Origin: Aequorivita lipolytica
Lineage (GTDB): Bacteria; Bacteroidota; Bacteroidia; Flavobacteriales; Flavobacteriaceae
Length of the DNA stretch: 64,000 bases
Direction: 5' to 3'
Assembly (NCBI RefSeq): GCF_007997135.1
Contig: NZ_VORU01000011.1
Location: 1 to 64,000, forward strand
The notes under the pieces are model-generated. The model had not been told where the DNA came from. It ran no database searches and was given only the letters and a program-made list of their open reading frames with translations. The position numbers and the translations under genes were made by a program. Of the stretch, positions 859-58,433 are shown piece by piece (the first letter of the stretch is position 1; every line of letters begins with the position of its first letter).

Positions 859-1287
859 ATGAAAATAATAATAATCAACGGCCCAAACCTAAATCTGCTT
901 GGCAGAAGGGAGAACAATATCTACGGAGACGAAACTTTTAATGATTTTTTTGAAAGGTTGCAAAAGAAATATGCCAACCAGGAAGTTTCCTATTTTCAAT
1001 CCAACATTGAAGGCGAATTGATCGATAAAATTCAAGAAGTGGGCTACAAATTTGATGGCATCATTTTGAATGCCGCTGCATACACACATACTTCCGTAGG
1101 TATTGCAGATGCTGTGAAAGCAATAACCACGCCTGTGGTGGAAGTTCATATTTCCAACACTTTTTCAAGAGAAGATTTTAGGCATAAAAGCTACATTTCG
1201 CCAAATGCAAAAGGGGTGATCGTTGGTTTTGGATTGCAGAGTTATGAGTTGGCGTTGCAGAGTTTTCTCAAAAAGAGTCAAGAATAA
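859..1287 (+). CDS. aroQ: 3-Dehydroquinate dehydratase, type II
   Basis: It catalyses the reversible dehydration of 3-dehydroquinate to 3-dehydroshikimate in the shikimate pathway, in the cytoplasm. The 142 residues match the usual length of the dodecameric type II enzyme. Visible motifs are NGPNLNLLG near residues 7-15, AAAYTHTSV near 72-80, EVHISN near 94-99 and the conserved arginine in EDFRHKSY. Another shikimate gene, aroB, lies 20 kb away and is not linked to it. The last codons (KSQE) already fall inside a heptameric repeat that continues past the stop. The -7 box almost touches the ATG, and no later ATG would keep the NGPNLN motif, so this start is firm. Confidence 0.97.
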   Translation: MKIIIINGPNLNLLGRRENNIYGDETFNDFFERLQKKYANQEVSYFQSNIEGELIDKIQEVGYKFDGIILNAAAYTHTSVGIADAVKAITTPVVEVHISNTFSREDFRHKSYISPNAKGVIVGFGLQSYELALQSFLKKSQE

Positions 1288-1323
1288 AGACCCAAGAACC
1301 AAGAGCAAAGAAAAAAGACATAA
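1275..1323. repeat. Heptameric tandem repeat overlapping the end of aroQ
   Basis: Seven 7-bp units of the form GAnnnAA are in register: GAGTCAA, GAATAAA, GACCCAA, GAACCAA, GAGCAAA, GAAAAAA, GACATAA. The first two include the last codons and the stop of aroQ. One of several period-7 arrays in the window. Confidence 0.7.
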
Positions 1324-1325
1324 AA

Positions 1326-1353
1326 AAAACCGCAAGAATATTGCGGTTTTATT
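1326..1353 (+). terminator. Intrinsic terminator after aroQ
   Basis: The perfect stem AAAACCGCAA (1326-1335) with TTGCGGTTTT (1341-1350) has a 5-nt loop. It has A runs before and T runs after, so it could work in both directions between the convergent genes aroQ and lpdA. Confidence 0.85.
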
Positions 1354-1358
1354 ATTTT

Positions 1359-1421
1359 GCCTAATGCCTAATGCCTAATGCCTAATGCCTAATGCCTAAT
1401 GCCTAATGCCTAATGCCTAAC
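1359..1421. repeat. (GCCTAAT)9 heptameric tandem repeat
   Basis: Eight perfect copies of GCCTAAT are followed by one GCCTAAC, ending 2 bp before the lpdA stop codon. This is the purest period-7 array in the window and is likely to vary in copy number by slippage. Confidence 0.97.
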
Positions 1422-1423
1422 AT

Positions 1424-2800
1424 CTATAAGTGAATAACTTCCCCATAAGCATCAGCAACGGCTTCCATTACTGCTTCGCTCATTGTAGGGTGTGGGTGGA
1501 TTGTTTTTAGCACTTCGTGGCCTGTGGTTTCTAGTTTTCTTCCTAAAACTGCCTCTGCAATCATATCGGTTACGCCAGCGCCAATCATGTGGCAGCCTAG
1601 CCATTCGCCGTATTTGGCATCAAAAATTACTTTTACAAAACCATCCTTTTCACCGGAAGCACTTGCTTTTCCGCTAGCAGAGAAAGGGAATTTTCCAACT
1701 TTAATTTCGTAGCCAGCTTCTTTTGCTTGCTTTTCAGTCATACCAACGCTTGCAATTTCTGGCGAAGCGTAGGTACAGCCTGGAATATTTCCATAGTCAA
1801 TAGGTTCTACGTGCAGACCTGCAATTTTTTCAACGCAAGTAATACCTTCGGCAGAAGCAACGTGGGCTAGGGCAGGACCAGGGGTTATATCTCCAATAGC
1901 ATAATAGCCAGGAATGTTTGTTTGGTACCAATCATTCACCATTATTTTTCCTTTATCGGTTACAATACCCACTTCTTCCAATCCAATGTTTTCAATGTTG
2001 GTAGCAATTCCAACAGCTGAAAGTACTATTTCAGCTTCAATGGTTTCTTCACCTTTTGCTGTTTTTACGGTTGCTTTTACCAATTTTCCGGAAGTATCCA
2101 ATTTTTCTACGGAAGAATTCGTCATTACTTTAATACCTGCTTTTTTGAAGGATCGCTCAAATTGTTTTGAAACGTCTTCATCTTCCAGAGGAACAAGGTT
2201 TGGTAAAAATTCAACTATAGTAACTTCTGTTCCCATAGAGTTATAGAAATGTGCGAACTCAACGCCAATAGCGCCACTGCCCACAACTATCATACTCTTG
2301 GGTTGTTTTTTTAGGGTCATTGCTTCGCGGTAGCCTATCACTTTCTTGCCGTCCTGTTTCAGGTTTGGCAATTCGCGGGAACGTGCTCCGGTTGCAATAA
2401 CTATATGGTCTGCGGAGTATTCCTTTCCGTCAACATCTATTTTTTTTCCAGGTTTAATTTTTCCGAAGCCATTGATGACGTCAATTTTGTTTTTCTTCAT
2501 TAAAAACTGAACGCCTTTGCTCATACCGTCGGCTACGTTGCGGCTACGGTCAACTACTTTTGTGAAGTCTTTATCAAACTCCTTTACTGTAAGGCCGTAA
2601 TCATCTGCGTGTTTTAGATAATCAAAAACCTGAGCACTCTTCAAAAGCGCTTTTGTAGGGATGCATCCCCAGTTTAGGCAAACGCCCCCAAGGCTTTCTT
2701 TTTCAATAATGGCGGTCTTTAAACCTAATTGTGAAGCCCTTATGGCAGTAACATAACCACCGGGACCGCTTCCTAAAACTATTACGTCGTATTTACTCAT
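1424..2800 (-). CDS. lpdA: Dihydrolipoyl dehydrogenase (E3)
   Basis: This FAD/NAD flavoprotein reoxidises dihydrolipoamide in 2-oxoacid dehydrogenase complexes and the glycine cleavage system. In order it shows the FAD Rossmann motif GSGPGGYVTA (residues 10-19), the redox disulfide GGVCLNWGC (Cys41/Cys46), the ATGAR motif, the NAD-binding GSGAIGVEFA, a second FAD motif (AIGD) and the C-terminal dimer-interface pair His437/Glu442 in HPHPTMSE. All catalytic residues are present and the 458 residues match the family. It is a single gene, not in an operon with E1/E2 here, so it probably serves several complexes. Its 3' end abuts the (GCCTAAT)9 array and its 5' side holds another heptameric array. 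Confidence 0.97.
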   Translation of the reverse strand: MSKYDVIVLGSGPGGYVTAIRASQLGLKTAIIEKESLGGVCLNWGCIPTKALLKSAQVFDYLKHADDYGLTVKEFDKDFTKVVDRSRNVADGMSKGVQFLMKKNKIDVINGFGKIKPGKKIDVDGKEYSADHIVIATGARSRELPNLKQDGKKVIGYREAMTLKKQPKSMIVVGSGAIGVEFAHFYNSMGTEVTIVEFLPNLVPLEDEDVSKQFERSFKKAGIKVMTNSSVEKLDTSGKLVKATVKTAKGEETIEAEIVLSAVGIATNIENIGLEEVGIVTDKGKIMVNDWYQTNIPGYYAIGDITPGPALAHVASAEGITCVEKIAGLHVEPIDYGNIPGCTYASPEIASVGMTEKQAKEAGYEIKVGKFPFSASGKASASGEKDGFVKVIFDAKYGEWLGCHMIGAGVTDMIAEAVLGRKLETTGHEVLKTIHPHPTMSEAVMEAVADAYGEVIHL

Positions 2801-2857
2801 TACTTAATTTTATGTATATTTTTATTGAAGCAACGAATTTACGAAATACTAAAGGAA

Positions 2858-2934
2858 AAATTCCAAATAACAAATTAGAAATGTGAAATTAGAAATGTGA
2901 AATTAGAAATCACAAATTCCAAATTCCAAATAAC
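2858..2934. repeat. Eleven-unit heptameric array (AAATnnn)
   Basis: The units are in perfect 7-bp register: AAATTCC, AAATAAC, three AAATTAG alternating with two AAATGTG, AAATCAC, two AAATTCC and AAATAAC. It fills much of the gap between msrB and lpdA. AAAT is constant and the last three bases vary, so this is not one simple unit copied. Confidence 0.9.
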
Positions 2935-2956
2935 TTCCAAAACGGAAAAATTAATA

Positions 2957-3003
2957 AAAAAACCAAAAATCCAAGGGGCGCTCCTTTGGATTTTTGGTTT
3001 TTA
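2957..3003 (-). terminator. Intrinsic terminator after the msrB pair
   Basis: A long hairpin has arms AACCAAAAATCCAA (2961-2974) and TTGGATTTTTGGTT (about 2986-2999), with a GC-rich apex. On the minus strand it is followed by a T-rich run, downstream of the msrB stop at 3051. Confidence 0.7.
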
Positions 3004-3013
3004 AGTTTTGTTA

Positions 3014-3048
3014 TTTATTTGGAACTTGGTGCTTGAAATTTGAAATTT
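3014..3048. repeat. Heptameric array just after msrB
   Basis: Five 7-bp units each end in TT: TTTATTT, GGAACTT, GGTGCTT, GAAATTT, GAAATTT. The array ends 2 bp from the msrB stop codon at 3051. Confidence 0.65.
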
Positions 3049-3050
3049 CT

Positions 3051-3461
3051 TTATTCGTTGTTTTTCTCAAATCCCAACGAAAGCGAATTTACACAATACC
3101 GCTGTCCAGTTTCTGTTGGGCCGTCATTAAAGATGTGCCCTAAATGGCTTCCGCAGTTGGAACAAAGAATTTCTGTACGCATCATTTCGAGGGTAGTGTC
3201 TTTAATATATTCAACAGCACCTTCAATTGAATCATCAAAAGAAGGCCATCCACAACTGCTCTCAAATTTGTTGTTGCTTTTGAAAAGGGGTGTGTGGCAA
3301 GCACCACAAACGTATGTGCCATCTTCAAAAGTTAGATTGTACTCTCCAGTTCTGGGAAACTCTGTACCTTTTTCACGAAGAATGTGGTAACGTTTGTCGC
3401 CTAACTCTTCGCGCCATTCAGCTTCAGATTTTTTTACGGGATATTTATTTGGACTCTCCAT
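3051..3461 (-). CDS. msrB: Peptide-methionine (R)-S-oxide reductase, cytoplasmic form
   Basis: It reduces methionine-R-sulfoxide in proteins. The 136 residues have no signal peptide. The structural zinc site is visible as CGAC (Cys52/Cys55) and CSNC (Cys100/Cys103). The catalytic cysteine is Cys123 in RYCVNS and a probable resolving cysteine is Cys70 in ESSCGWPSF. Its start lies inside the end of the upstream msrB-like gene (17-bp overlap), so the two are co-transcribed and probably translationally coupled. The pair would repair oxidised methionine on both sides of the inner membrane. Confidence 0.95.
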   Translation of the reverse strand: MESPNKYPVKKSEAEWREELGDKRYHILREKGTEFPRTGEYNLTFEDGTYVCGACHTPLFKSNNKFESSCGWPSFDDSIEGAVEYIKDTTLEMMRTEILCSNCGSHLGHIFNDGPTETGQRYCVNSLSLGFEKNNE

Positions 3462-3948
3462 TATCGGGAATAAAATTTAGTGCAACGCCGTTTATACAAT
3501 GTCTTTTGCCAGTGGTTTCTTTTGGTCCATCGTCAAATTCGTGGCCCAAGTGCCCGCCACAGGTGGCACAATGCTCTTCAGTTCTTGTATAGCCAAGTTT
3601 ATTATCGGTTGAGAACGCTACGTTTCCTTCAATTACGCGATCAAAGCTTGGCCATCCCGTTCCGCTTTCAAATTTATGTTCGCTTTCATAAAGCGGTGTT
3701 CCGCAAGCAGCACATACGTATGTTCCTTGTTTGTGATTATCATTCAGCGGGCTGGAGAAGGCGCGTTCTGTTCCTTCCTGGCGCATAACGTTATAGGCTT
3801 CTGGTGAAAGCTGTGCTTTCCATTCAGCATCGGTTTTAGTAATCTCAAAAGTTTGTTGTTTTGTTTCCTTACTTTTTTGTGCAGGAGAGTTACAACTGAT
3901 CAGGAAAGTACTCAATATAATAAGTGTGCTTAAAATTTTCATTCTCAA
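3445..3948 (-). CDS. msrB: Peptide-methionine (R)-S-oxide reductase, lipoprotein form
   Basis: This second MsrB is exported: a lipoprotein signal ends at Cys19 (FLISCN). A roughly 20-residue linker leads to an MsrB domain with both zinc pairs (Cys79/Cys82 and Cys127/Cys130) and the catalytic Cys151 in RHCIN. The position equivalent to the resolving Cys70 of its neighbour is threonine (ESGTGWPSF), so it probably regenerates differently. It is first in a two-gene operon and overlaps the cytoplasmic msrB by 17 bp. The start is MRMK or MK two codons later; both keep the signal. Envelope repair of oxidised methionine is inferred from the signal peptide. Confidence 0.93.
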   Translation of the reverse strand: MRMKILSTLIILSTFLISCNSPAQKSKETKQQTFEITKTDAEWKAQLSPEAYNVMRQEGTERAFSSPLNDNHKQGTYVCAACGTPLYESEHKFESGTGWPSFDRVIEGNVAFSTDNKLGYTRTEEHCATCGGHLGHEFDDGPKETTGKRHCINGVALNFIPDNGESK

Positions 3949-3999
3949 TTATTTAATTATTAGAAATGTTTCAAATGCGCTTTGCTTAATCATTTCATA

Positions 4000-4530
4000 T
4001 TAAAGTTCTATTTTTTCAATTTGTGAATTTTCTATCTGCATCATTTCCAAAACATCTTTCATTGAAGGATTGGTTCTTGCAAATTCGGCAGGAACCACTG
4101 CAATTCTAAAGATTTGGTTGGTCACATCCTCAGGAGCAATGTTGGTTAAATCAAAATTGCCTTCAATTGTAAACTGAACACTAACGAATGTATGGTTGAA
4201 ATTATATTGGAAAGTATCTCCAGTTCCATCTTGATAGAAAACATTTTGAGGTAATTGGGTCCAAACATCGGCCGGTGGATTTACGGTGGTATCTTGCCCC
4301 GATAAACGATAAGCCAATACAACATCACTTTCAAAAACATCAAATGGATATGAATATACTGGGCTAAAATAGATGTTAGCCGGATAATCATCGTAACTGA
4401 AATTAGGGCTAACTTCAAAAACCTGCCCTAAGAAAGAAGTGCCATCCAGTCCCGGAGGTCCCGGATCGCCTTCGCAGGAAGTGAATAATATGGTTGAAGA
4501 AAGTGCTAAAAAAAGAAATATATTTTTCAT
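4000..4530 (-). CDS. Lipoprotein with a collagen-like GPPG start, function unknown
   Basis: The 176 residues begin with a lipoprotein signal ending at Cys19 (FTSCEGD). A short glycine-proline segment follows (GDPGPPGLDG), as in other Bacteroidota lipoproteins that have a collagen-like tether after the lipid anchor. The rest is acidic and beta-rich with no motif I recognise. It is a single gene between the msrB pair and the M48 peptidase gene, which is divergent. Surface or periplasmic location is inferred; the function is not known. Confidence 0.7.
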   Translation of the reverse strand: MKNIFLFLALSSTILFTSCEGDPGPPGLDGTSFLGQVFEVSPNFSYDDYPANIYFSPVYSYPFDVFESDVVLAYRLSGQDTTVNPPADVWTQLPQNVFYQDGTGDTFQYNFNHTFVSVQFTIEGNFDLTNIAPEDVTNQIFRIAVVPAEFARTNPSMKDVLEMMQIENSQIEKIEL

Positions 4531-4739
4531 AATAAGTATTTTAAGATTACAACTTTAAGGTATTCAAAAGTCGTTCCAACTTTTAAAAGTGCATAAATTT
4601 AAAGGCTTCCATTGCATATCACTATTAAAGAAACATTAAAGTTTATAGTTAATTTTTTTGAAAATTCAATTTTAGAAAAATTTTGGGAGAATACTAATTT
4701 TATATTTCTAATTTTAACATTTAAACTAAACCATAGTAT

Positions 4740-5561
4740 ATGAAACTTAAGAAATCACTTTCCATATTATTATTAGGAGTGCTAGTAGTTGCCTGTAGTA
4801 CCAATCCGTTTACTGGGAAACAAACTTTAGCATTGGTTCCAAATTCACAGATCTTACCGATGGCTTTTCAGCAATACAATGAGTTTTTGTCTGAAAACAA
4901 AGTGGTAACGGGAACGGCCGAAGCGAATATGGTAAAGAATGTTGGACAAAAAATAGCTTCAGCAGCGGAAAGATATTTAACTGCGAATGGATACGCGGGC
5001 TATTTAACGGAATATCGTTGGGAATACAACCTGGTGAACAGTCCAGAAGTTAATGCTTGGTGTATGCCCGGCGGAAAAATTGTGGTTTATACTGGTATTT
5101 TGCCAATAACGAAGGATGAAGCCGGTTTAGCAGCAGTTATGGGTCATGAAGTTGCCCACGCACTTGCCAATCACGGACAACAACGCATGAGTGCGGGCCA
5201 ATTACAGCAACTGGGAGCAGTTGCGGGAAATATTGCATTGAGCGGTGACGCTCAAAACCAACAAATTTTTAATACAGCTTATGGATTGGGTTCAAACCTT
5301 GGGGTTATGTTACCATTTAGTAGAAGCCATGAAATAGAGGCAGACCATATTGGACTTATATTAATGGCAATAGCTGGTTATGATCCAATTGTTTCAGCAG
5401 AATTATGGCAACGTATGCAAGCACAGGAAAGTGGCAATAAGCCACCAGAATTTTTAAGCACACACCCTTCCAGTGCAACCAGAATACAAAATATTCGAAC
5501 CTGGGCACCTGAAGCTAGAGCAGAAGCCAGAAAGTTTGGTGTTACTACTTTTAAGAAGTAA
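4740..5561 (+). CDS. M48-family zinc metallopeptidase, lipoprotein (LoiP/BepA-like)
   Basis: The 273 residues begin with a lipoprotein signal ending at Cys19 (VVACST). The zinc protease motif HEVAH lies at His136-His140, with the third ligand region EIEAD near Glu200 and the conserved C-terminal block STHPSSATRIQNI. This is the single-domain M48 arrangement of periplasmic quality-control proteases such as E. coli LoiP and the protease part of BepA, which act on outer-membrane proteins. It lacks the BepA TPR domain. The substrate is unknown. It has its own terminator downstream. Confidence 0.93.
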   Translation: MKLKKSLSILLLGVLVVACSTNPFTGKQTLALVPNSQILPMAFQQYNEFLSENKVVTGTAEANMVKNVGQKIASAAERYLTANGYAGYLTEYRWEYNLVNSPEVNAWCMPGGKIVVYTGILPITKDEAGLAAVMGHEVAHALANHGQQRMSAGQLQQLGAVAGNIALSGDAQNQQIFNTAYGLGSNLGVMLPFSRSHEIEADHIGLILMAIAGYDPIVSAELWQRMQAQESGNKPPEFLSTHPSSATRIQNIRTWAPEARAEARKFGVTTFKK

Positions 5562-5594
5562 AATAAGCGAAATAAATATTTAATTGAAAATTTT

Positions 5595-5622
5595 AAAATC
5601 CCACTTTGAGTGGGATTTTTTA
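5595..5622 (+). terminator. Intrinsic terminator after the M48 gene
   Basis: Perfect 11-bp stem AAAATCCCACT (5595-5605) with AGTGGGATTTT (5609-5619), 3-nt loop, then T residues. Confidence 0.88.
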
Positions 5623-5655
5623 TTAGTTTAGTAACCTTAAAACTAAATCATCACT

Positions 5656-6975: not shown

Positions 6976-7023
6976 ACAATTTTTGTTTAAGTTTGCGTTT
7001 ACTACCTACAAAACTACTTATTT

Positions 7024-8418: not shown

Positions 8419-8436
8419 TTGAAATAATTTTTACAT

Positions 8437-34030: not shown

Positions 34031-34079
34031 ACGATTAACGATTGATTGAAAAACAATTAACAGATAACAATTAACAGAT
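34031..34079. repeat. Heptameric array between lpxA and efp
   Basis: Seven units in 7-bp register: ACGATTA, ACGATTG, ATTGAAA, then AACAATT and AACAGAT twice alternating. It begins 13 bp after the lpxA stop. Confidence 0.8.
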
Positions 34080-34096
34080 ACCCGCCGAAGTTTATA

Positions 34097-34742: not shown

Positions 34743-34777
34743 AATTATTCATTATTCATTAAACATTATTAATTATT
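34743..34777. repeat. Heptameric array abutting a TTG start codon
   Basis: Five 7-bp units (AATTATT, CATTATT, CATTAAA, CATTATT, AATTATT) end directly against the TTG start at 34778, so the whole ribosome-entry region of this gene is repeat DNA. Confidence 0.8.
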
Positions 34778-35716
34778 TTGAAATTCCCAACTCCCCAGAC
34801 TCTTGAAAATATTGCCGTCATAATCGGTTCAGATTATGTGGGTGAGCCTAATTTCCCAGTTTTTGGGATGAATGAAATTCACGTGGTTCAGCCGGGAGAT
34901 ATAGTATTTGTAGACCATCCGAAGTATTACGACAAAGCGCTGGAATCTCAAGCAACCGTAATTCTTATAAACAAAGAAGTGGAATGCCCCGTTGGGAAAG
35001 CGCTTCTTATTTCCGAAGATCCCTTTCGTGATTTTAATAAGCTCACTCATTATTTCAAGCCTTTCCGAAGTTCTAACAGTGCAATTTCAGAATATGCAGA
35101 AATAGGCGAAGGCACCATTATTCAACCAAATGTTTTTGTTGGCAATAATGTAAAAATAGGCACAAATTGTGTTATTCACTCAAATGTTTGCATTTACGAC
35201 AACACGATTATCGGCAATAATGTGACTATCCATGCCGGCACTGTGTTGGGTAGCGATGCATTTTATTATAAAAATCGTCCCGAAAAGTTTGATAAACTTC
35301 TAAGCGGTGGCAACGTAGTTATTGAAGACAATGTAGATCTGGGCGCTTTATGCACTATAGATAAGGGCGTAACAGCTTCAACCACCATTGGTGAGGGTTC
35401 CAAACTGGACAATCAGGTTCACGTTGGGCACGATACCGTTATAGGTAAACGCTGTTTGATCGCTTCACAGGTTGGTATAGCGGGCTGCGTTTTGATTGAA
35501 GATTTTGTAACCATTTGGGGACAGGCTGGAATAACCAGCGGAATCACAATTGGTGAAAAAGCCGTTATTTCGGGGCAAAGCGGAGTTAGTAAATCATTGG
35601 TGGGGAACAAGGCATATTTTGGCACGCCTGCAGATGATTTCAGAACTAAATACAAGGAATTAGCTTCCATAAAGCTTATTCCGGACATAATAAAAAAATT
35701 GGATGAATTATCATGA
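34778..35716 (+). CDS. Second LpxD-like left-handed beta-helix acyltransferase
   Basis: The 312 residues are homologous to LpxD: a uridine-binding-like N-terminal domain (about 1-95) and a hexapeptide beta-helix (about 100-290), with the conserved histidine in NQVHVGHDTVIGKR and LGSDAFYYKN in place of the GADGFGY motif. It is a paralogue of lpxD at 30735. The altered motif suggests a different nucleotide-sugar or acyl donor. The start is TTG 34778 (MKFPTPQTLENI), because the next ATG would remove about 30 residues of the first domain. The stop overlaps the next gene as ATGA. Confidence 0.85.
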   Translation: MKFPTPQTLENIAVIIGSDYVGEPNFPVFGMNEIHVVQPGDIVFVDHPKYYDKALESQATVILINKEVECPVGKALLISEDPFRDFNKLTHYFKPFRSSNSAISEYAEIGEGTIIQPNVFVGNNVKIGTNCVIHSNVCIYDNTIIGNNVTIHAGTVLGSDAFYYKNRPEKFDKLLSGGNVVIEDNVDLGALCTIDKGVTASTTIGEGSKLDNQVHVGHDTVIGKRCLIASQVGIAGCVLIEDFVTIWGQAGITSGITIGEKAVISGQSGVSKSLVGNKAYFGTPADDFRTKYKELASIKLIPDIIKKLDELS

Positions 35717-38043: not shown

Positions 38044-38071
38044 GGCATTAGTTAATTGGTAATAGATAATA
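38044..38071. repeat. Degenerate heptameric repeat after fabG
   Basis: GGCATTA, GTTAATT, GGTAATA, GATAATA: four related 7-bp units starting 2 bp after the fabG stop. Confidence 0.4.
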
Positions 38072-45820: not shown

Positions 45821-45848
45821 CTCAACTCAAAACTCAAATAAAATATCA
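45821..45848. repeat. Degenerate heptameric repeat just before hisG
   Basis: CTCAACT, CAAAACT, CAAATAA, AATATCA in 7-bp register, ending 2 bp before the hisG ATG. Confidence 0.4.
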
Positions 45849-45850: not shown

Positions 45851-46708
45851 ATGAAAAAGTTAAAAATTGCGGTACAAAAATCAGGAAGACTTCACGATGA
45901 ATCGCTTGCCTTGTTAAAGGATTGCGGGATTTACATAGACAATGGCCGTGAACAATTAAAGGCTACATCCACTAATTTTCCTCTGGAAATATATTACCTG
46001 CGCAATGGTGATATTCCACAATACTTAAAAGATGGCGTGGTAGATTGTGCTATTATTGGCGAAAACCTCCTGGTTGAAAAAGGCGAAGAAATTTCAATAG
46101 TAGGCCGATTGGGTTTTTCAAAATGTAGAGTTTCCCTCGCAGTGCCAAAAACTTTTAAATACAATTCCATCAACGATTTTAACGGAAAACGAATCGCCAC
46201 TAGCTACCCTGAAACAACACGAAATTACCTAAAAGAAAAAGGAGTAGAAGCAGAGCTGCACATTATTAACGGTAGTGTTGAAATAGCACCAAATATAGGC
46301 CTGGCAGATGCAATTTGCGATATTGTGAGCAGTGGCAGCACCCTGTTCAAAAACAATTTAAAGGAAGTGGAGGTAATTCTGAAAAGTGAAGCCGTGCTTG
46401 CCGTATCTCCAAATATTTCAGAAAGCACAAATAATATCTTGGACAAACTTCACTTCAGAATTCAATCGGTTTTACAAGGCCGTGATTCTCGTTACGTGCT
46501 CTTAAATGCTCCCAACAATAAAATTGACGATATAATCAAAATCCTCCCCGGAATGAAAAGTCCCACTGTACTTCCCTTGGCCGAAGAGGGCTGGAGCAGC
46601 ATCCATTCCGTTGTTAACAGAGATACTTTTTGGGAAGTAATTGAAGAACTGAAAGAAGCCGGCGCAGAAGGAATTCTAGTTTGCCCAATTGAAAAAATGA
46701 TATTTTGA
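45851..46708 (+). CDS. hisG: ATP phosphoribosyltransferase (long form)
   Basis: It joins ATP and PRPP, the committed step of histidine synthesis. The 285 residues show LKIAVQKSGRLHDESLALL at the start, the PRPP loop DAICDIVSSGSTLFKNN near 156-172 and a C-terminal PII-like regulatory domain (about 210-285), so it is the long, histidine-inhibited form that needs no HisZ. It is the first structural gene of hisGDCBHAFIE behind the leader attenuator. Its stop codon is the first base pair group of a 20-unit heptameric repeat. Confidence 0.97.
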   Translation: MKKLKIAVQKSGRLHDESLALLKDCGIYIDNGREQLKATSTNFPLEIYYLRNGDIPQYLKDGVVDCAIIGENLLVEKGEEISIVGRLGFSKCRVSLAVPKTFKYNSINDFNGKRIATSYPETTRNYLKEKGVEAELHIINGSVEIAPNIGLADAICDIVSSGSTLFKNNLKEVEVILKSEAVLAVSPNISESTNNILDKLHFRIQSVLQGRDSRYVLLNAPNNKIDDIIKILPGMKSPTVLPLAEEGWSSIHSVVNRDTFWEVIEELKEAGAEGILVCPIEKMIF

Positions 46709-46846
46709 ACGACGAGGTGCGAACGACGAACGACGAGGTGCGAACGACGAGGTGCGAACGACGAGGTGCGAACGACGAGGTGCGAATGACGAACGACGAG
46801 CGACGAACTACGAGCGACGAACGACGGGCGACGAACTACGAAATAG
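46707..46846. repeat. Twenty-unit heptameric array between hisG and hisD
   Basis: The units are GAACGAC, GAGGTGC, GAATGAC, GAGCGAC, GAACTAC and GGGCGAC, twenty in perfect 7-bp register. GAACGAC and GAGGTGC alternate five times, then the pattern mixes. It begins inside the hisG stop codon. The minus strand stays open through it, giving a false repetitive protein (46492-46857). Confidence 0.95.
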
Positions 46847-50497: not shown

Positions 50498-51083
50498 CGT
50501 AATTATTAATTATGGCGCAGGGAATATTCAAAGTATCAAATTTGCTTTGAAACGACTGGGCGTGGAAGCTATTTTGACCGACAATGAAACTGAAATCCGA
50601 AATGCAGATAAGGTAATTTTTCCAGGTGTTGGCGAGGCGAGTAGCGCGATGCAAAAGTTGAAAGCTAGTGGACTGGACAAAGTAATCCCCACATTAAAAC
50701 AACCCGTTTTGGGAATCTGTTTGGGAATGCAGCTGCTCTGCAATTCTTCCGAAGAAGGAAATACTAAAGGTTTGGGAGTTTTTGATGTAGATGTAATACG
50801 ATATTCTAACGAAGTAAAGGTGCCGCAAATAGGGTGGAACCAAATTCAGAATCTTAAATCAGGCCTGTTCAAAAATGTTTCAGAAAATGAGTTTATGTAT
50901 TTGGTGCATAGCTATTACGCGCCGCTATGTGAAGGAACGATTGCAAGCAGTGAATACGGAATTCAATATTCATCGGCTTTACAAAAGGGCAATTTTTACG
51001 GGGTACAATTTCACCCTGAAAAAAGCAGCACTGCAGGAGAACAAATTTTAAAGAACTTTTTAAATCTAAAATCTAAAATCTAA
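50439..51083 (+). CDS. hisH: Imidazole glycerol phosphate synthase, glutaminase subunit
   Basis: It supplies ammonia from glutamine to HisF. The 214 residues show the nucleophile cysteine in GICLGMQLL near 90 and the His/Glu pair in GVQFHPEKSS near 193. HisH normally begins at about VIINYGAGN; the first 19 residues here (MKKELKKIMENTPPLGVGG) come partly from the inverted repeat. An internal ATG at 50463 would shorten the extension. The last residues (NLKSKI) come from an AAAATCT heptameric array. The catalytic triad is intact. Confidence 0.95.
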   Translation: MKKELKKIMENTPPLGVGGLVIINYGAGNIQSIKFALKRLGVEAILTDNETEIRNADKVIFPGVGEASSAMQKLKASGLDKVIPTLKQPVLGICLGMQLLCNSSEEGNTKGLGVFDVDVIRYSNEVKVPQIGWNQIQNLKSGLFKNVSENEFMYLVHSYYAPLCEGTIASSEYGIQYSSALQKGNFYGVQFHPEKSSTAGEQILKNFLNLKSKI

Positions 51084-51102
51084 CGTCTAAAATCTAAAAT
51101 CT
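51061..51102. repeat. Heptameric (AAAATCT)n array joining hisH to hisA
   Basis: TAAATCT, two AAAATCT, AACGTCT, two AAAATCT. It encodes the last HisH residues and ends directly against the hisA ATG at 51103. Confidence 0.9.
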
Positions 51103-51882
51103 ATGAGAATAATACCAGCAATAGACATTATAGACGGCAAATGTGTTCGCCTTTCAAAAGGCGATTACAGTACAAAAAAGATTTACAATGAAAATCCGCT
51201 AGAGGTTGCCAAACAGTTTGAAGCACACGGAATTCAATATTTACATTTGGTGGATTTGGACGGCGCCAAAAGTAAACACATCGTAAACCATAAGGTTTTG
51301 GAAGAAATCGCTTCAAATACCAAATTAAAAATTGACTTTGGTGGGGGGTTAAAAACTGATGAAGATTTAAAGATAGCCTTTGAATGTGGCGCGAGTCAAA
51401 TTACCGGCGGCAGTATAGCTGTTAAAAATCCAGAAGTTTTTAAAAGTTGGTTGCAAAAATTCGGAAATGAAAAAATAATTTTGGGAGCGGATGCCAAAGA
51501 TGAAAAAGTAGCAATAAGCGGTTGGACCGAAGATTCAAATGAAGCCCTCATTCCATTTATCCAAAAATACGTTGAAGAAGGCATTAGCTATGTAATCTGT
51601 ACAGACATCAGCAAAGATGGAATGTTACAAGGCCCTTCGTTTGAGTTATATAAAAAAATAATTAGCGAATGTCAGTCTGAGCTCAGCGCCGCACCGAGCC
51701 TGTCGAAGTGTCGAAGACCTAATGGAAACAGAATTAAACTAATCGCTTCCGGTGGAATATCAACTTTCGAAGAACTTCCAAAACTTGCAGAAATAGGTTG
51801 TGAGGCAACAATAATAGGGAAAGCAATTTATGAAAATAGAATAAGTTTAAAACAACTTGAAAACTATATACTAAATGCTTAG
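51103..51882 (+). CDS. hisA: ProFAR isomerase (HisA) with a repeat-derived insertion
   Basis: It isomerises ProFAR to PRFAR in histidine synthesis. The 259 residues form a TIM barrel with catalytic Asp in [18 protein letters not shown] near 4-21 and the second Asp in CTDISKDGM near 167-175. The phosphate site is IASGGIS near 213. The usual length is about 240. Residues 190-206 ([17 protein letters not shown]) match no HisA and are exactly the in-frame translation of a dispersed GAGC element (51671-51720). The insertion lies in the loop before the strand IKLIASGG, away from the active-site face, so function is probably kept. It overlaps hisF by 8 bp. Confidence 0.95.
51671..51720. repeat. Dispersed GAGC-type element inside hisA
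   Basis: GTCAGTCTGAGCTCAGCGCC, then GCACCGAGCCTGTCGAAG and TGTCGAAGACCT. It is 50 bp, in frame with no stop, and homologous to the element at the hisD 3' end. Confidence 0.85.
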
Positions 51883-52672
51883 TAAAAGGATAATACCCTG
51901 TTTAGATATCAAAAACGGAAGAACCGTAAAAGGAATCAATTTCCTGGATTTACGCGATGCTGGAGATCCTGTGGAGTTGGCAAAATTCTATTCCGAAAAC
52001 GGAGCGGACGAGTTGGTTTTTCTGGATATTTCAGCAACCGAAGAACGCAGAAAAACATTAGCAGATTTGGTATTAAAAGTAGCCGAAACAATCAATATTC
52101 CTTTTACGGTGGGAGGCGGCATTTCTTCCGTGGAAGACGTAGAAATTCTTTTAAATAACGGTGCAGACAAGGTTTCGGTGAATTCTTCCGCAGTAAAAAA
52201 TCCGCAGTTGATTAATGAGCTGGCTTCAAGGTTTGGATCACAGTGCATAGTTGTTGCCATTGACGCAAAACAGATTGACGGGAACTGGAAGGTTCATTTA
52301 GTAGGAGGGAAGGTGCCAACCGAGTTGGATTTGTTTGATTGGGCAAAAGAAGTGGAACGTCGCGGTGCTGGAGAAATTCTTTTCACTTCTATGGATCACG
52401 ACGGCACCAAAAATGGTTTTGCAAATGAAGCCTTGGCAAAACTTTCAACAGATTTAAATATTCCGATAATCGCCTCAGGTGGAGCAGGAACTATGCAGCA
52501 TTTTACTGATACTTTTATTGAAGGAAAGGCAGATGCGGCTTTGGCTGCCAGCGTTTTTCATTTTAAGGAGATTACCATTTCAGATTTAAAAAATGAATTA
52601 TTAATTCAGGGAATTCCAATGCGATTGATGAACGACGAGCGACGAATGACGAATGACGAAAAAATAAATTAA
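51875..52672 (+). CDS. hisF: Imidazole glycerol phosphate synthase, cyclase subunit
   Basis: It uses HisH-derived ammonia to make imidazole glycerol phosphate and AICAR. The 265 residues form a TIM barrel with catalytic Asp in [14 protein letters not shown] near 7-20 and the second Asp in [11 protein letters not shown] near 170. Phosphate sites are VGGGISS and IASGGAG. The normal end is near the AIPMR/GIPMRL motif; the last 13 or so residues ([13 protein letters not shown]) are the translation of a GAnnGAC heptameric repeat. It starts inside the end of hisA. Confidence 0.97.
52630..52664. repeat. Heptameric array forming the HisF C-terminus
   Basis: GAACGAC, GAGCGAC, two GAATGAC, GAAAAAA, in 7-bp register; the same unit family as the 20-unit array before hisD. 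It is translated as part of the HisF tail. Confidence 0.85.
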
Positions 52673-52710
52673 GAATTCTGAAGTTTTATTTTGCTATTTG
52701 AATTAATAAG

Positions 52711-52786: not shown

Positions 52787-52816
52787 AATTTGGGTAAAAA
52801 GTAAAAAAAGTAAAAT

Positions 52817-53422: not shown

Positions 53423-53464
53423 TCTTTATACTTTTTCCTACCTTTAAAAAATAATCCACTTTTT

Positions 53465-54550: not shown

Positions 54551-54694
54551 TAAGATAAACTAACAATTCATTTCGACCAAATGTGAAATTCAGAATGCTT
54601 AACAGAAATATTCATTTCAACGCCAGTTAAAATCGTTTAAATTGATCTATTTTTATAAATTCGTTAAAATGAAACAGTACATAAATAAAGACCA

Positions 54695-55084
54695 ATGGAC
54701 CTAATTGACTACATAATTATTGCATTAAAAGTAATTGTTGGAATCAGCATTTTAAATGTGTGGTTAATCCAGCCAAAAAAACCTTCAAAGTGGAGAGGCG
54801 GTGACGCAAAAACTATTGTTGAAGAATTTGAAGTTTATGGTTTATCAAAGACATTTTGTTACATCATTGGCTTTTTAAAGGTAAGTTTAGCATTAATTCT
54901 GCTGGCTTCAATTGCCTTTGTGAACTTAACTTTAATTGGAAGTTTAGGATTGGCCGTTTTATTGTTAGGATCAATAATTATGCATCTTAAAGTAAAAGAC
55001 GAATTGTATAAATCATTTCCTGCCTTTTTATTTATAGTAATGAATCTTGTTATAGCGTTGCACTATTTAAAAGTATTTAGTTAA
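54695..55084 (+). CDS. DoxX-like small membrane protein
   Basis: The 129 residues have four membrane helices (about 6-24, 52-73, 76-96 and 107-126). A YGLSKTFCYIIGFLKVSLAL segment after a cytoplasmic loop resembles the DoxX-like family. The function is unknown; DoxX relatives are linked to redox and sulfur chemistry. Its last 18 bp overlap tail to tail with the gene at 55067-55417, and both end in an almost identical region (ALHYLKVFS against ALITLTKYF). Confidence 0.75.
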   Translation: MDLIDYIIIALKVIVGISILNVWLIQPKKPSKWRGGDAKTIVEEFEVYGLSKTFCYIIGFLKVSLALILLASIAFVNLTLIGSLGLAVLLLGSIIMHLKVKDELYKSFPAFLFIVMNLVIALHYLKVFS

Positions 55085-55417
55085 GGTTATTAAGGCAATA
55101 ATTAAATTTAGAACTGCAAAAGTAAAAGCTGGTGAAGATTTAATAAAATTATCTTTAATTTTTAATCTAACTATAAATCCAGCCAGCATTAATAAACACA
55201 ATCCTAGGGAAGCTGCTACGAGTAATATTGGACTGAAATAAAGACCAATCAACAATCCCATTGATCCTATTAATTGAAGAAATCCAGCCAGTTTTCTAAA
55301 CGTCGGCAACCCATACCTACTAAATTCTGAAATAATAAACTGTGAATAAAAGCAGTTAATACCGAAGTAAATAAATGCTAGACTTGAGAACCAAGTTAGT
55401 ACAGTAAGTAAATCCAA
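55067..55417 (-). CDS. DoxX-like small membrane protein, convergent with its neighbour
   Basis: The 116 residues have four membrane helices. YGLPTFRKLAGFLQLIGSMG, LKIKDNFIKSSPAFTFAVLN and the end resemble the neighbour's YGLSKTFCYIIGF, LKVKDELYKSFPAFLFIVMN. The two are therefore homologues in opposite orientation that share 18 bp at their 3' ends. The function is unknown. Confidence 0.75.
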   Translation of the reverse strand: MDLLTVLTWFSSLAFIYFGINCFYSQFIISEFSRYGLPTFRKLAGFLQLIGSMGLLIGLYFSPILLVAASLGLCLLMLAGFIVRLKIKDNFIKSSPAFTFAVLNLIIALITLTKYF

Positions 55418-55924
55418 TTGTTTTTATCAAAGATACGTAATTCTATTGCGCGTATCAGGATTGATATAATATGCTTAATGGTAGATTAATAAAGTTAATC
55501 TTCAATTAAAGAAAAGAAAATTTCTAAGCAATTCAAATTAATATTTATAGTACAAAAACGATTAATTGGTATGGAACTAAACCTTTTAAAAAACCAATCG
55601 GCTATAATCCCGAGCCTTATTTTCAAAACAGACTTTCTTTGGGTATCTTAAAAGATAGCCAGTAGGTGTGCAAATTCCTTATATGTGAAATATCTAGGAA
55701 TAGGCGAAATTTAAAGCCAATATTTTTTTATGAAATTTTCTGATTCAATATTTTAGGAGATTAGTTTAAACTAGGGTTTAGTACAAACTATGTATTGCTT
55801 AAGGAGCATAAATTTCGAATACAAAAATATGAAAGCTTAATAATTTTGTTTAATCTTTTGTTAAATAGTTTAAACAAATAAAAAGTCCGTGTATCTTTAA
55901 CACAACTTAAAAACCTTAAATATT
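55418..55924. other. 507-bp gene-free AT-rich stretch
   Basis: I see no open frame of family character, hairpin terminator or repeat array. The right end holds TATCTTTA (55892-55899), one mismatch from the TAnnTTTG box, 25 bp before the fasciclin gene, and is its likely promoter. Confidence 0.5.
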
Positions 55925-56503
55925 ATGAGAACAATGAAAGTACTAAGCTTTTTCGCTCTTTCGGGACTATTATTTTTGTCCTGTGGCGAAAAACAAAAAG
56001 AAGTTACAGAAGAGCCTGTTGCTCAAGTTACAGAAATGGAAGTTCAGGAACAGAAAGCACCTAATATTGTAGAAGTTGCCGCAGGAAATGAGAACTTTTC
56101 CACCTTGGTGGCTGCGGTAAAAGCTGCAGGATTGGTTGAAACGTTAAGTAGTGATGGTCCGTTTACGGTATTTGCTCCAACAAATGAAGCTTTTGCAAAA
56201 TTACCTGCTGGAACAGTAGAGAGTCTCTTACTGCCTGAAAATAATGCAACACTATCTAAAATTTTGACCTACCATGTGGTATCGGGAAAATTTGAGGCAG
56301 CGGCGGTTATTGAAGCCATTAATTCAAACAAAGGCAAATTTACGGTAACTACTGTTCAAGGGGATAATATTGTTTTGAGCCTAAAAGATGGTAATGTAAT
56401 ATTGACAGATGCCCAGGGCGGAACCGCTACGGTGGTTATGGCCGATGTTGCAGCCTCAAATGGGGTTATTCACGCACTGGATGCTGTGGTGATGCCGAAA
56501 TAA
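55925..56503 (+). CDS. Fasciclin-domain lipoprotein
   Basis: The 192 residues start with a lipoprotein signal ending near Cys20 (LLFLSCGEK). A charged linker leads to one FAS1 domain (about 55-192) with FSTLVAAVKAAGLVETLSS, the hallmark GPFTVFAPTNEAFAKLP, ILTYHVVSGK and NGVIHALDAVVMP. FAS1 domains act in adhesion and surface binding. It is expected in the periplasm or on the surface. It is a single gene with its own terminator. Confidence 0.93.
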   Translation: MRTMKVLSFFALSGLLFLSCGEKQKEVTEEPVAQVTEMEVQEQKAPNIVEVAAGNENFSTLVAAVKAAGLVETLSSDGPFTVFAPTNEAFAKLPAGTVESLLLPENNATLSKILTYHVVSGKFEAAAVIEAINSNKGKFTVTTVQGDNIVLSLKDGNVILTDAQGGTATVVMADVAASNGVIHALDAVVMPK

Positions 56504-56531
56504 GAAACGCAGTCTGAAAAAGAAGATTAAG

Positions 56532-56560
56532 GCCATTGCATTCCAGCAATGGCTTTTTTT
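56532..56560 (+). terminator. Intrinsic terminator after the fasciclin gene
   Basis: Stem GCCATTGC (56532-56539) with GCAATGGC (56546-56553), extended by A-T pairs, 6-nt loop, then T run. Confidence 0.88.
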
Positions 56561-56684
56561 ATTTAATTGTGTAGTGATTCCATTTGGAATAAAATACATT
56601 TCTAAAATTCAAATAGGTTTTCGTGAATTCAACTTCCTTTTAAAAATTCAATTGGTATTCATTTCTATTCCAAATATGAATTTA

Positions 56685-56792
56685 TTAAATCATTAAATTA
56701 ACTACAAAACCAAGATATATGGATGTAACAAGCGTTAAGGCATACTCGCAGAATTTGGTGTAGCCTTTCGCCGCAAAATCAAAATCCTCCAT
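56685..56792 (-). CDS. Possible 35-aa membrane peptide downstream of tspO
   Basis: ATG at 56792, 35 nt after the tspO stop on the same strand, opens a frame of 35 codons. It reads MEDFDFAAKGYTKFCEYALT, then one hydrophobic helix (LVTSIYLGFVVNLMI) to TAA. The composition (acidic start, single membrane helix) is protein-like, but I know no relative. The rest of the 324-bp gap between the fasciclin gene and tspO holds only the terminator. Confidence 0.25.
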   Translation of the reverse strand: MEDFDFAAKGYTKFCEYALTLVTSIYLGFVVNLMI

Positions 56793-56827
56793 ACTAAAGA
56801 TCCTTATACCTACGGAGATTTTTCTGA

Positions 56828-57286
56828 TTAGTTTTTTATTAAAGAATACGCATTTAAGGAAGTAGCAATAAGCAACCAAATAAAATATGGAGCTACTAAA
56901 AGGGATTTATACGTTACTTCTGGCCAATAGAAAAACATAAAAAACGCAATAACTAGCGTTAACGCCGATATTATAAAGAGTCCCGCCAAAAGTTGGTGGT
57001 AATAAAAGAAAACTGGATTCCAGGCTAGATTTAAAATATAGTGAAGAATCAACATTCCGATAAGCAGTTTTTTATTCTCCACCACAGGCCATAAATACGC
57101 CAGATAAATACTAAAGCAAATCATAATTACGGTCCACGAGGCACCAAAGACCCAACCTGGGGGAGTCCAAGGGGCTTTATTAATACCGGCATACCATTCA
57201 GACCGTGGACCTTTTCCTGCCATTAAACTTCCAAGGCCAATGGAACCAAAATTAAGTATTAAGAATAGTATAAGTCTGTAGATCAT
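56828..57286 (-). CDS. tspO: TspO/MBR family protein
   Basis: The 152 residues have five membrane helices. The family tryptophan-rich motifs are WYAGINKAPWTPPGWVFGAS near 31-50 and NLAWNPVFFYYH near 88-99. TspO binds tetrapyrroles and sterol-like ligands and is linked to stress and porphyrin handling; the role here is unknown. It may be co-transcribed with the 74-aa gene 50 bp upstream. Confidence 0.93.
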   Translation of the reverse strand: MIYRLILFLILNFGSIGLGSLMAGKGPRSEWYAGINKAPWTPPGWVFGASWTVIMICFSIYLAYLWPVVENKKLLIGMLILHYILNLAWNPVFFYYHQLLAGLFIISALTLVIAFFMFFYWPEVTYKSLLVAPYFIWLLIATSLNAYSLIKN

Positions 57287-57335
57287 TTAAATGTTCTTTT
57301 TTGAATTCTAAGTAATTTGAAAATAGTAATTTAAT

Positions 57336-57560
57336 TCATTCTATAATCTCATAGTCAATAGCTAGTTTTCGCAGTGCTCTCAAAGCAGAACCACTGTCTT
57401 TGTCTTCCACTTCAATTTCTACAGCGTCTCCTTCTAAGAGGATATCTGTAAGTTCATTGGCTAAGGATTCGTTTATGTTTAATGAAATCGCTACAATAGA
57501 TTGGGCTATCGCTCTTCTATCTGGCCGCTGCGCATCACAAGACAATAATTTTAATTTCAT
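57336..57560 (-). CDS. Small conserved-looking protein, function unknown
   Basis: The 74 residues have an alpha/beta pattern: MKLKLLSCDAQRPDRRAIAQ, a helix NESLANELTDILLEGD, an acidic strand AVEIEVEDKDSGS and a final helix ALRALRKLAIDYEIIE. The helix-loop-strand order recalls the fold of ribosomal protein L7/L12 C-terminal domain; this is a resemblance only. There is no signal peptide. It lies 50 bp upstream of tspO on the same strand. Confidence 0.6.
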   Translation of the reverse strand: MKLKLLSCDAQRPDRRAIAQSIVAISLNINESLANELTDILLEGDAVEIEVEDKDSGSALRALRKLAIDYEIIE

Positions 57561-57688
57561 AATACCGATTTATTAATGCAAGATACCAAAATTGAAGAAG
57601 GTGAATAATTCAAAATTTCGTCGCTCTTATTTCGTACTTTCAACAAATCAACAATCCAGAACTATTATTGGAGAAGACGAATTTTTCA

Positions 57689-57744
57689 TAATTCATAATC
57701 TCGTCGCTCGTCGTTCATAGCTTGTCGTTCGTAGCTCGTACTTC
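57689..57744. repeat. Eight-unit heptameric array beside thiE
   Basis: TAATTCA, TAATCTC, GTCGCTC, GTCGTTC, ATAGCTT, GTCGTTC, GTAGCTC, GTACTTC. Read on the minus strand the core units are GAGCGAC, GAACGAC and GAGCTAC, the same as in the hisG-hisD array. It ends 4 bp from the thiE stop. Confidence 0.8.
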
Positions 57745-57748
57745 CAAT

Positions 57749-58390
57749 TCACTCAAACGTATACCGTTGCTCCGCAGTAGAAGATGCATTAAGCAATTGG
57801 TTAAGTACTTTTATAGTATTAAAATCGCGGGTAATTTCGCCGGAAACAGCAATTCCAGAAATACCCGTTTCTAATATGGCTGTAACATCTGCTGTTGTAA
57901 TACCTCCAACGCCAATAATAGGTGTGCCGGTTTTCAATATATCCGTAATGGCAGTATAGCCCGCTAAGCCTAAAGCTGGCGGTAAGTTAGCTTTAGTTGC
58001 TGTGTCTCTAAAGGGACCTAAACTAATATAATTCACTTGTTTGTCAAGCAGTGTTTCGCAATCCTGCATCGTATTTGCCGTGCCACCAATAATTTGCCAC
58101 GAGTATAAATGTTTACGAGCTATAGTAGGGCAGGAGTCTATTTTTCCCAAATGAACACCGTCTGCTTTAACTTCTCTTGCTATTTTATAATGATCATTTA
58201 TAATCAATCTTGTTTGAAAATGGGAAGTGATTTCTCTAGCATCATGGGCTGTTTTTAAAAAGTTCTTTTCTGAAACATTTTTTAAACGCAATTGCACCAA
58301 CTCCGCACCAGAGTTACAAGCCTTCTGAATATTCTCCAAATGCGCTACCGGCGAACTCCCTTGGGATATATAATGTAGTTTAGGTATCAT
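57749..58390 (-). CDS. thiE: Thiamine phosphate synthase (ThiE-like)
   Basis: It joins the thiazole and pyrimidine halves of thiamine. The 213 residues form a TIM barrel with VQLRLKN near 32-38, INDHYKIAREVKADGVHLGK near 63-82, ISLGPFRDTATK near 126 and the phosphate motif GVGGITTADV near 163. The usual SVFPT/TTTK diphosphate motif appears as RDTATK. No other thiamine gene or TPP riboswitch is near, so it could be the TenI-like branch or a salvage enzyme; all key residues for ThiE look present. Confidence 0.85.
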   Translation of the reverse strand: MIPKLHYISQGSSPVAHLENIQKACNSGAELVQLRLKNVSEKNFLKTAHDAREITSHFQTRLIINDHYKIAREVKADGVHLGKIDSCPTIARKHLYSWQIIGGTANTMQDCETLLDKQVNYISLGPFRDTATKANLPPALGLAGYTAITDILKTGTPIIGVGGITTADVTAILETGISGIAVSGEITRDFNTIKVLNQLLNASSTAEQRYTFE

Positions 58391-58398
58391 ATTTTTTT

Positions 58399-58433
58399 AA
58401 TATTCAATTCACAATACTCAATTCTCAATTCTC
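58399..58433. repeat. Five-unit heptameric array at the end of the half-helicase gene
   Basis: AATATTC, AATTCAC, AATACTC, AATTCTC, AATTCTC. The array starts 8 bp upstream of the thiE ATG and supplies the last codons and stop of the gene at 58418. Confidence 0.75.

Follow-up and report, generated by a model that had tools for sequence, protein, structure and literature searches.

Tandem repeats with a unit of seven nucleotides are over-represented in many bacteria, where they have been attributed to slippage, with reference to a study of 2007, and where regulatory roles have been conjectured (PMC4692102, PMC4679880). Among flavobacteria, heptamer arrays are on record for Aequorivita sublithincola and Gramella forsetii (PMC4679880). 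Heptamers also occur in the intervening sequence (IVS) of Coxiella rRNA, which carries an S23 open reading frame (ORF) and a terminal stem, is cleaved by RNase III and has two or three sets of heptamers before the ORF, depending on the strain (PMC4990558), and a minisatellite has been described inside a miniature inverted-repeat transposable element (MITE) of Porphyromonas gingivalis (PMC4596501). Here, we describe the period-7 (heptad) arrays in the first 64,000 nucleotides (C2:1-64000, 'the window') of contig C2 of a 3.31-Mb, 47-contig assembly of Aequorivita lipolytica and their relation to S23 genes. The S23 family, PF05635, is the '23S rRNA intervening sequence protein' (23S_rRNA_IVP, IVP below), a small four-helix-bundle protein.

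The heptamer excess and its explanation by slippage are already in print, as are heptamer arrays in another Aequorivita; an earlier reading of the window from its letters alone (the sequence-only reading) had known of no description of this mixed-sequence class in flavobacteria. The new part is the link to S23. This link is shown here as an association of anatomy across phyla and as presence and absence within a genus. The inverted, matched arms around S23 genes in distant bacteria suggest a shared and little-studied genetic element. On balance, we regard it as probable that the arrays of the window are members of a group of tandem arrays with short units, mostly of 7 bp, and that the S23/IVP element is the organised form of this group. 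Joining the heptamers to S23 makes both testable, since it provides a candidate protein and a defined anatomy (a gene in a loop and matched arms), and the spacer between hisA and hisF offers a natural presence/absence site for the link.

Period-seven runs across the genome

Exact repeats were counted by lag in the 41.6 kb of noncoding sequence within a sample of 366.8 kb, which comprises the window and 18 further stretches (302.8 kb); noncoding sequence was defined by a simple, greedy calling of ORFs of at least 80 aa. Runs of at least 10 numbered 32 at lag 7, 19 at lag 14 and 9 at lag 21, compared with 0-3 at each of the remaining lags from 2 to 22 and 0-0.6 in dinucleotide shuffles. Chance is excluded because the 32 lag-7 runs stand against 0.3 in ten such shuffles and 0-3 at lags that are not multiples of seven, and the pattern is not a choice of examples because most of the scanned sequence lies outside the window. 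The sequence-only reading had proposed a period-7 rule and had named the comparison with other lags and with shuffles as the way to refute it; the rule survives and is confirmed as real and genome-wide in this Aequorivita genome. As had been proposed, the feature common to the arrays is the period and not the sequence, the excess being confined to lags 7, 14 and 21. With the threshold lowered to runs of at least 8, lags 8 (11 runs) and 15 (12 runs) also exceed the shuffles (2.4 each). A further 13 lag-7 runs lie inside called ORFs, some of which may be miscalled because arrays create open frames.

The genome sample contains 37 listed arrays of period 7. In some, the unit sequence changes several times along the array while the phase is kept (L020:16781-16955 and L026:14052-14408), and in comparisons between species, relatives differ in copy number and unit at the same site. 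The partition of units into constant and variable positions was borne out in a more specific form: AAATnnn, AAGAnnn and GAnnnAC each have four cyclically contiguous constant bases and three variable ones, and adjacent unit columns are more alike than permuted columns (the observed likeness is reached by 2 of 300 permutations for 24 arrays of this genome and by 5 of 300 for 67 arrays of relatives). By spacer type (n = 32), arrays are rarest between divergent genes, in promoter spacers (3 in 10.1 kb), with 9 in 7.8 kb between convergent genes, 19 in 24.5 kb between co-directional genes and one inside an ORF. Two TTACTGC arrays at L019 (695-797 and 1324-1392) share an orientation about 530 bp apart, on a contig in which no PF05635 match was found.

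Related genera differ in their lag-7 runs. Across 80 his-operon loci, with Muricauda and Flagellimonas pooled as Allomuricauda, lag-7 runs of at least 10 numbered 18 in Flavobacterium (29.4 kb noncoding), 11 in Lutibacter (7.8 kb), 4 in Gelidibacter (2.5 kb) and 8 in Aequorivita (13.1 kb); there were none in Allomuricauda (13.7 kb) or Arenibacter (19.5 kb), and four Aquimarina loci had no lag-7 run and three at lag 14.

Inverted arrays around S23 genes

A profile search gave 21 PF05635 matches in this genome. We compared 89 gene-oriented S23 loci in four sets, quoted below in the order own (these 21), other genera of the family (29), phylum-wide (29) and cyanobacterial plasmids (10). The family and phylum loci are the best-scoring S23 match of each genome, one each from 58 genomes; the 21 own copies alone form a complete set, and a search scoring fewer candidates gave 18. 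Nineteen plasmid records had an S23 match, 12 were taken and the 10 cyanobacterial ones were counted; the Azospirillum and Gemmatirosa plasmid loci were inspected by eye only. Both neighbours are co-directional with the S23 gene at 21 of 21, 27 of 27 (of 29), 25 of 27 (of 29) and 5 of 9 (of 10) loci, and every one of the 21 own copies is flanked on either side, within 400 bp, by a co-directional ORF of 300 nt or more. S23 loci lie in operon-rich stretches, because 62 of the 67 gene pairs elsewhere in them are co-directional, compared with 202 of 284 adjacent pairs in the own-genome sample. The own copies occupy spacers between protein genes and not the 23S rRNA helix location that marks an rRNA IVS; the Azospirillum locus (L296) looks, by eye, like the rRNA case.

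The 100-bp flanks of S23 genes are enriched in heptads. The lag-7 match is 0.442, 0.398, 0.367 and 0.469, compared with 0.299, 0.303, 0.277 and 0.300 in shuffled flanks (z of 19.1, 19.9, 22.4 and 16.8). Control spacers elsewhere in the S23 loci give 0.368, 0.306, 0.302 and 0.339, so that this genome and the cyanobacteria have some signal away from S23. Lags 14 and 21 follow lag 7, lag 8 is weakly raised (z of 2.0-4.2), lags 6, 13 and 16 are weakly raised in the cyanobacterial flanks only (z of 2.8-3.1), and the remaining printed lags show no excess in the four sets. Lag 7 is the best lag, with a score of at least 10, on either side of the gene at 17/21, 22/29, 17/29 and 8/10 loci and on both sides at 12/21, 7/29, 6/29 and 6/10; on Nostoc and Calothrix plasmids, too, arrays stand at the ends of S23 genes in several cases. 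For ordinary genes, lag 7 was likewise best, with a score of at least 10, on either side in 21 of 375 and on both sides in 0 of 375 cases in 25 foreign family genomes, and in 31 and 6 of 104 cases, respectively, in this genome.

The two arms of a locus match each other in inverted orientation. Inverted alignment of arms from the same locus scores 14.8, 13.1, 13.5 and 16.9, compared with 7.4, 7.9, 7.7 and 8.1 for arms from different loci, and exceeds direct alignment at 15/21, 25/29, 25/29 and 8/10 loci. In all four sets G exceeds C in the upstream arm and C exceeds G in the downstream arm. The calculated duplex energies of paired arms (-31.9, -28.9, -36.1 and -47.1 kcal/mol) are lower than those of cross-locus pairs (-19.1, -19.1, -25.4 and -29.8 kcal/mol) and of shuffled arms (-21.1, -20.8, -26.5 and -31.5 kcal/mol), falling below the 5th percentile of cross-locus pairs at 9/21, 14/29, 12/29 and 3/10 loci; for the flanks of 396 ordinary genes, drawn from this genome and the 25 foreign ones, the mean is -19.2 kcal/mol.

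The arms also agree in period. In a sample of 98 loci (the 89 and nine more), the period could be called in 122 of 196 flanks and was 7 in 101, 8 in 15, 9 in five and 6 in one. Where both arms were callable (40 loci), the periods were equal in 37, compared with a permutation maximum of 33. The Gemmatirosa locus has inverted period-8 arms (by eye), and G023, another Flavobacteriaceae genome, has three S23 copies with arms of period 7, 9 and 8. G023 also contains arrays of several different 11-bp units (L185:3630-3716, L185:13623-14007, L186:1694, L186:1899, L187:12685, L188:1673 and L188:12927) and only three lag-7 runs, which is a different length preference in a different lineage. With these other periods, the sequence-only claim of a period of exactly seven does not stand: the length rule is a strong preference rather than a strict one and is already known in general terms. 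The interpretation given in the sequence-only reading is, taken as a whole, partly supported.

Within the genus, a comparison of six Aequorivita relatives shows that arrays of the his operon come and go while the genes on either side stay unchanged. Four of these relatives have an additional ORF between hisA and hisF, preceded by ACGAnnn arrays and followed by TCGTnnn arrays; in the two tested cases (L027 and L028) this ORF is a PF05635 gene (57.9 and 58.5 bits). The hisA locus was readable in 17 of 28 Aequorivita genomes. S23 lies between hisA and hisF in nine of the 17, with arrays on both sides in eight and downstream only in L338, where S23 is 56% alike; in the other eight, hisA and hisF abut or overlap and there is no array.

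A second site is the spacer between genes that we take to be paaB and paaC, examined at 25 loci by tblastn with five own S23 copies. S23 is present at 13, with unit families that are, by eye, GAAATCG-type in seven, TTAGGnA-type in five and GATGAAG-type in one. In L321 the left arm seen in L319 is preserved over 34 bases, one of which differs; paaC begins immediately after this arm, and S23 is absent. Six S23-less spacers chosen by eye (L300 twice, L309, L301, L311 and L314) have inverted heptad halves with scores reached by 0-3 of 300 shuffles, and in either half of every one of these spacers lag 7 scores highest among lags 5-9. Other Aequorivita spacers carry, by eye, a CTGAGCGCAGTCGAAGG-type repeat (L310, L313 and variants in L299, L315 and L322) or a TTCCCGC..GCGGGAA-type repeat (L305, L308, L316 and L334) instead of arrays; exact copies of three tested words from these two repeat types are absent from the window. 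Elsewhere in the genome of the window (G000), five PF05635 copies with differing array units (L110, L126, L127, L117 and L125) lie within 7.3 kb at C14:370345-377652, some of them between genes resembling what we assume to be paaA, paaB and paaC.

An insertion keeps its units for long and different insertions mostly differ, even at paaB-paaC, because arm similarity follows the site. At an S23 identity of 40-50% arm similarity is 23.9 where the outer flanks are shared (n = 38) versus 9.25 elsewhere (n = 1829), and at 60-70% identity it is 41.0 (n = 36) versus 11.5 (n = 40); where the outer flanks are shared and S23 is less than 40% alike (n = 30) it is 8-10, as at different sites. The idea that unit class tracks S23 protein phylogeny was rejected, since at different sites unit similarity is scarcely correlated with S23 protein identity (Spearman 0.11). 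The closest moved pair, the own copies L120 and L122 (85% alike), has a common unit class.

Some further properties of S23 were recorded. On the cyanobacterial plasmids L287 and L291 the gene lies between cas6 and cas4, and on L294 between cas10 and a cmr3-family gene. No S23 relative was found in phages at an E value of 1e-5. The solved relatives, 2gsc (XCC0516, presumably from Xanthomonas campestris) and 2rld, have five chains per entry. L109 has a weak match to bAvd (27 bits, under the cut-off of 40), which we take to be the accessory protein of diversity-generating retroelements; the match would fit a distant kinship with that protein.

The window arrays and their probable origin

For each of the 11 arrays that the sequence-only reading had called clear, Tandem Repeats Finder reports a repeat with a period of 7 or 14 in that position or adjoining it (Table 1). 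Among the three called degenerate, the one at 45821 was recovered (2.1 copies) and those at 38044 and 38101 have no period-7 row. The units are mostly unrelated, as had been claimed, with the exception of the arrays at 46707, 52627 and 57700, which by eye all belong to an ACGAnnn (= TCGTnnn) family. The reported contacts with gene ends are right for the arrays at 1273, 34744, 51062-51103, 52627 and 58399. Gene names in the window (hisG, hisH, hisA, hisF etc.) are those of the sequence-only reading or are assumed.

Table 1. Heptad arrays of the window
Array	Position	Strand	Context or basis
AAGAnnn, ~6.6 units	1273-1318	+	Runs over the stop of ORF 859-1287; Tandem Repeats Finder
TGCCTAA x9, perfect	1358-1420	+	Stops 3 bp short of the end of minus-strand ORF 1424-2800
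AAATnnn, mixed, ~10.6 units	2858-2931	+	Weak inverted partner 85 bp away
TTGGAAC TTGGTGC TTGAAAT TTGAAAT, four units, weak	3019-3046	+	Tandem Repeats Finder and direct unit reading
AACAATT/AACAGAT twice (14 = 2x7), weak	34052-34080	+	Tandem Repeats Finder and direct unit reading
ATTATTC-type, 4.9 units	34744-34777	+	Adjoins ORF start at 34778
AACTCAA, 2.1 copies, marginal	45824-45838	+	Tandem Repeats Finder
ACGAnnn family, long, mixed	46707-46845	+	Between ORF ending at 46708 and hisG (46877)
AAATCTA x6	51062-51103	+	Spans hisH end to hisA ATG
ACGAnnn family	52627-52660	+	Within hisF 3' end
TTCATAA x2, then TCGTnnn (= ACGAnnn, minus strand)	57685-57739	-	Downstream of minus-strand ORF 57749-58390
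CAATnnn-type	58399-58439	+	Between minus-strand ORFs 57749-58390 and 58418-59065, overlapping the end of the latter

A 21-mer of three TGCCTAA units has one other genomic copy, at C45:9972. The inverted partner of the array at 2858 scores 13.0, compared with a cross-array 95th percentile of 11.5. Higher-order periods of 14, 21 and 28 bp occur within the array before hisG; the equivalent spacer in relatives has, by eye, ACGAnnn-like units in L027, L028, L029 and L032; in L031 it has an array of TTGAAAG, and in L030 its length is just a few bases. The hisH-hisA site has a related array (ACATCTA/ATATCTA) in L329 and L332 and no clear array in the remaining 13 of the 16 genomes showing the site. 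The array in hisF codes for most of the last residues of HisF, a protein that matches an Aequorivita metagenome bin at 96% and A. antarctica at 95%. HisA (51103-51882) has an extra stretch before IKLIASGG, and its matches skip residues 190-211 in G368 and G374 and about residues 70-84 in G375. The sole Rfam match at the gathering threshold in the window, a DUF805b RNA (RF02914, 37.6 bits) at 59591-59627, is unrelated to the arrays.

In the S23/IVP element, which we favour as the organised form, a small PF05635 gene occupies an operon spacer between two inverted arrays of the same unit and period. The arms of the transcript would pair as a stem whose loop contains the S23 gene, like the rRNA intervening sequences cut by RNase III, and this pairing would hold unit and period equal on both sides. 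Arms could lengthen when whole units are duplicated and shorten when they are lost, and either arm could serve as a template for the other. Solo arrays would be single arms left after loss of S23, or arrays seeded from arms, which then continued to expand and drift by whole units.

The solo arrays of this genome resemble its own S23 arms. The mean match of 35 solo arrays to the own arms is 17.8, compared with a mean of 13.4 and a maximum of 15.0 for 40 random sets of 21 foreign loci, base composition being unmatched between the sets. Of the 35, 26 individually exceed the foreign mean, and as a set the solo arrays share a unit class with the arms of their own genome to a degree that 0 of the 40 foreign sets reaches. 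On this resemblance, the solo arrays of the window likely derive from S23 elements. The sequence-only reading had set the common period against the spread of one element; that opposition is not supported, given the enrichment of arrays at S23 gene ends in two phyla and the greater closeness of own solo arrays to own than to foreign arms.

Several observations weigh against this account. No PF05635 match was found in the window, and none of its arrays forms a complete S23 element. Only 5 of 38 free arrays have an inverted partner at a distance of up to 350 bp (about 2 expected), so that most are single-armed; in the window only the array at 2858, of eight segments tested, has one, and it is weak. 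Free arrays also lie between convergent genes (9 of 32), and among the 19 in co-directional spacers the sense strand has more C in 11 cases and more G in 6, unlike upstream S23 arms. At the S23 genes themselves, a lag-7 array is missing from both sides by the above score at 4/21, 7/29, 12/29 and 2/10 loci (L367 and L374 of G068 lack a clear array), and only 16/21, 12/29, 14/29 and 5/10 single loci exceed the 95th percentile of cross-pair inverted alignments. The loci are not independent, outer flanks being common to 176 of 3916 locus pairs, and the cyanobacterial control spacers are themselves raised at lags 7, 14 and 21 (0.331-0.339). Genomes rich in S23 can be poor in free arrays: per 10 kb of noncoding sequence, G007, G054 and G073, with 16, 13 and 12 S23 copies, have 1.4, 2.6 and 0 array runs, and G033, in which no S23 was found, has 4.4.

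Three simpler notions were set aside. S23 copy number does not predict free-array density: over 26 genomes the Spearman correlation is 0.40 (p = 0.04), that of control lags is 0.38 (p = 0.06), and S23-rich genomes are not clearly richer once the genome of the window (G000) is left out. Free arrays are mostly not ORF-less hairpins in this genome (5 of 38), although six spacers of relatives are. An array length of about five units, read as a match to a pentamer, would be expected from the score threshold alone.

A general replication slippage with a preferred 7-nt step, set by a polymerase footprint, would make S23 spacers mere places where repeats are tolerated. It would account for the over-representation of heptamers in unrelated bacteria (PMC4692102, PMC4679880), for the abundance in this genome of free arrays without any S23 gene, for the contrast between the genera with frequent lag-7 runs (Flavobacterium, Lutibacter, Gelidibacter and Aequorivita) and the empty Allomuricauda and Arenibacter loci, and for units that drift in phase, as at L020:16781 and L026:14052. 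However, genomes poor in free arrays still have arrays at their S23 genes, mere tolerance gives no inverted arms with matching unit and period, and the periods of 8 and 9 in other elements and of 11 bp in one genome argue that there is no single universal footprint; we consider slippage alone a rather doubtful explanation. Selection for binding by a protein that contacts the constant bases and has a pitch near 7 nt, which could be S23 or a cold-shock protein, appears improbable. The constant columns do tend towards one contiguous block, the solved S23 relatives have the five chains noted above, and CspB is reported to bind heptamer repeats (PMC4679880), but the constant bases vary from array to array, unit similarity at different sites barely follows S23 identity, and periods of 8, 9 and 11 occur.

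That S23 genes insert into pre-existing heptad arrays is already disfavoured, and we give it very little credence. L120 and L122, which lie 31 kb apart with unrelated outer flanks and yet a common unit class, are what such targeting would produce, but insertion into one array would leave direct and not inverted flanks, the eight empty hisA-hisF sites have no array, and ordinary genes of foreign genomes have few arrays.

More tentatively, and with less confidence than the account favoured above, S23/IVP genes may be the core of widespread small selfish or domesticated mRNA intervening elements that make their own ends. Each insertion would build two inverted arms as tandem arrays, with a unit length that is fixed (usually 7, sometimes 8 or 9) and a unit sequence peculiar to that insertion; the heptameric repeats of cyanobacteria and the mixed arrays of flavobacteria would be products or relics of this process.

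Comparison with known systems

We found no recognisable report of S23 genes bounded by such arrays outside rRNA in a literature search that covered few subscription journals, and no established S23/IVP function, despite solved structures and many copies per genome. Repetitive extragenic palindromic sequences with their associated tyrosine transposases (REP/RAYT) and MITEs are small palindromic elements of intergenic DNA, only some of which include a protein gene. The S23 elements share this build; unlike them, they have no recognised transposase and no common end sequence, and their array ends are of varied unit. The Coxiella 23S rRNA IVS is similar in having an S23/IVP ORF, by name of the same protein family, within inverted, stem-capable ends and heptamers before the ORF. 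It differs in location, the elements described here lying between protein genes in operons, with up to 21 per genome, and in its ends, which here are tandem arrays with units that differ between insertions (PMC4990558). The heptameric repeats of the cyanobacteria Calothrix and Nostoc and the GGGAATC repeats of Xanthomonas resemble the present arrays in their period of 7, intergenic position, variable length and imperfect units, but no S23 link is reported for them in the excerpt available (PMC4692102). The TAACTGA repeats of Beggiatoaceae, cyanobacteria and some Bacteroidetes, among them Aequorivita sublithincola, are likewise heptamer direct repeats near starts and stops and are present or absent between close relatives; they are of one sequence (PMC4679880), whereas the arrays described here have many sequences, one period and matched inverted arms around S23.

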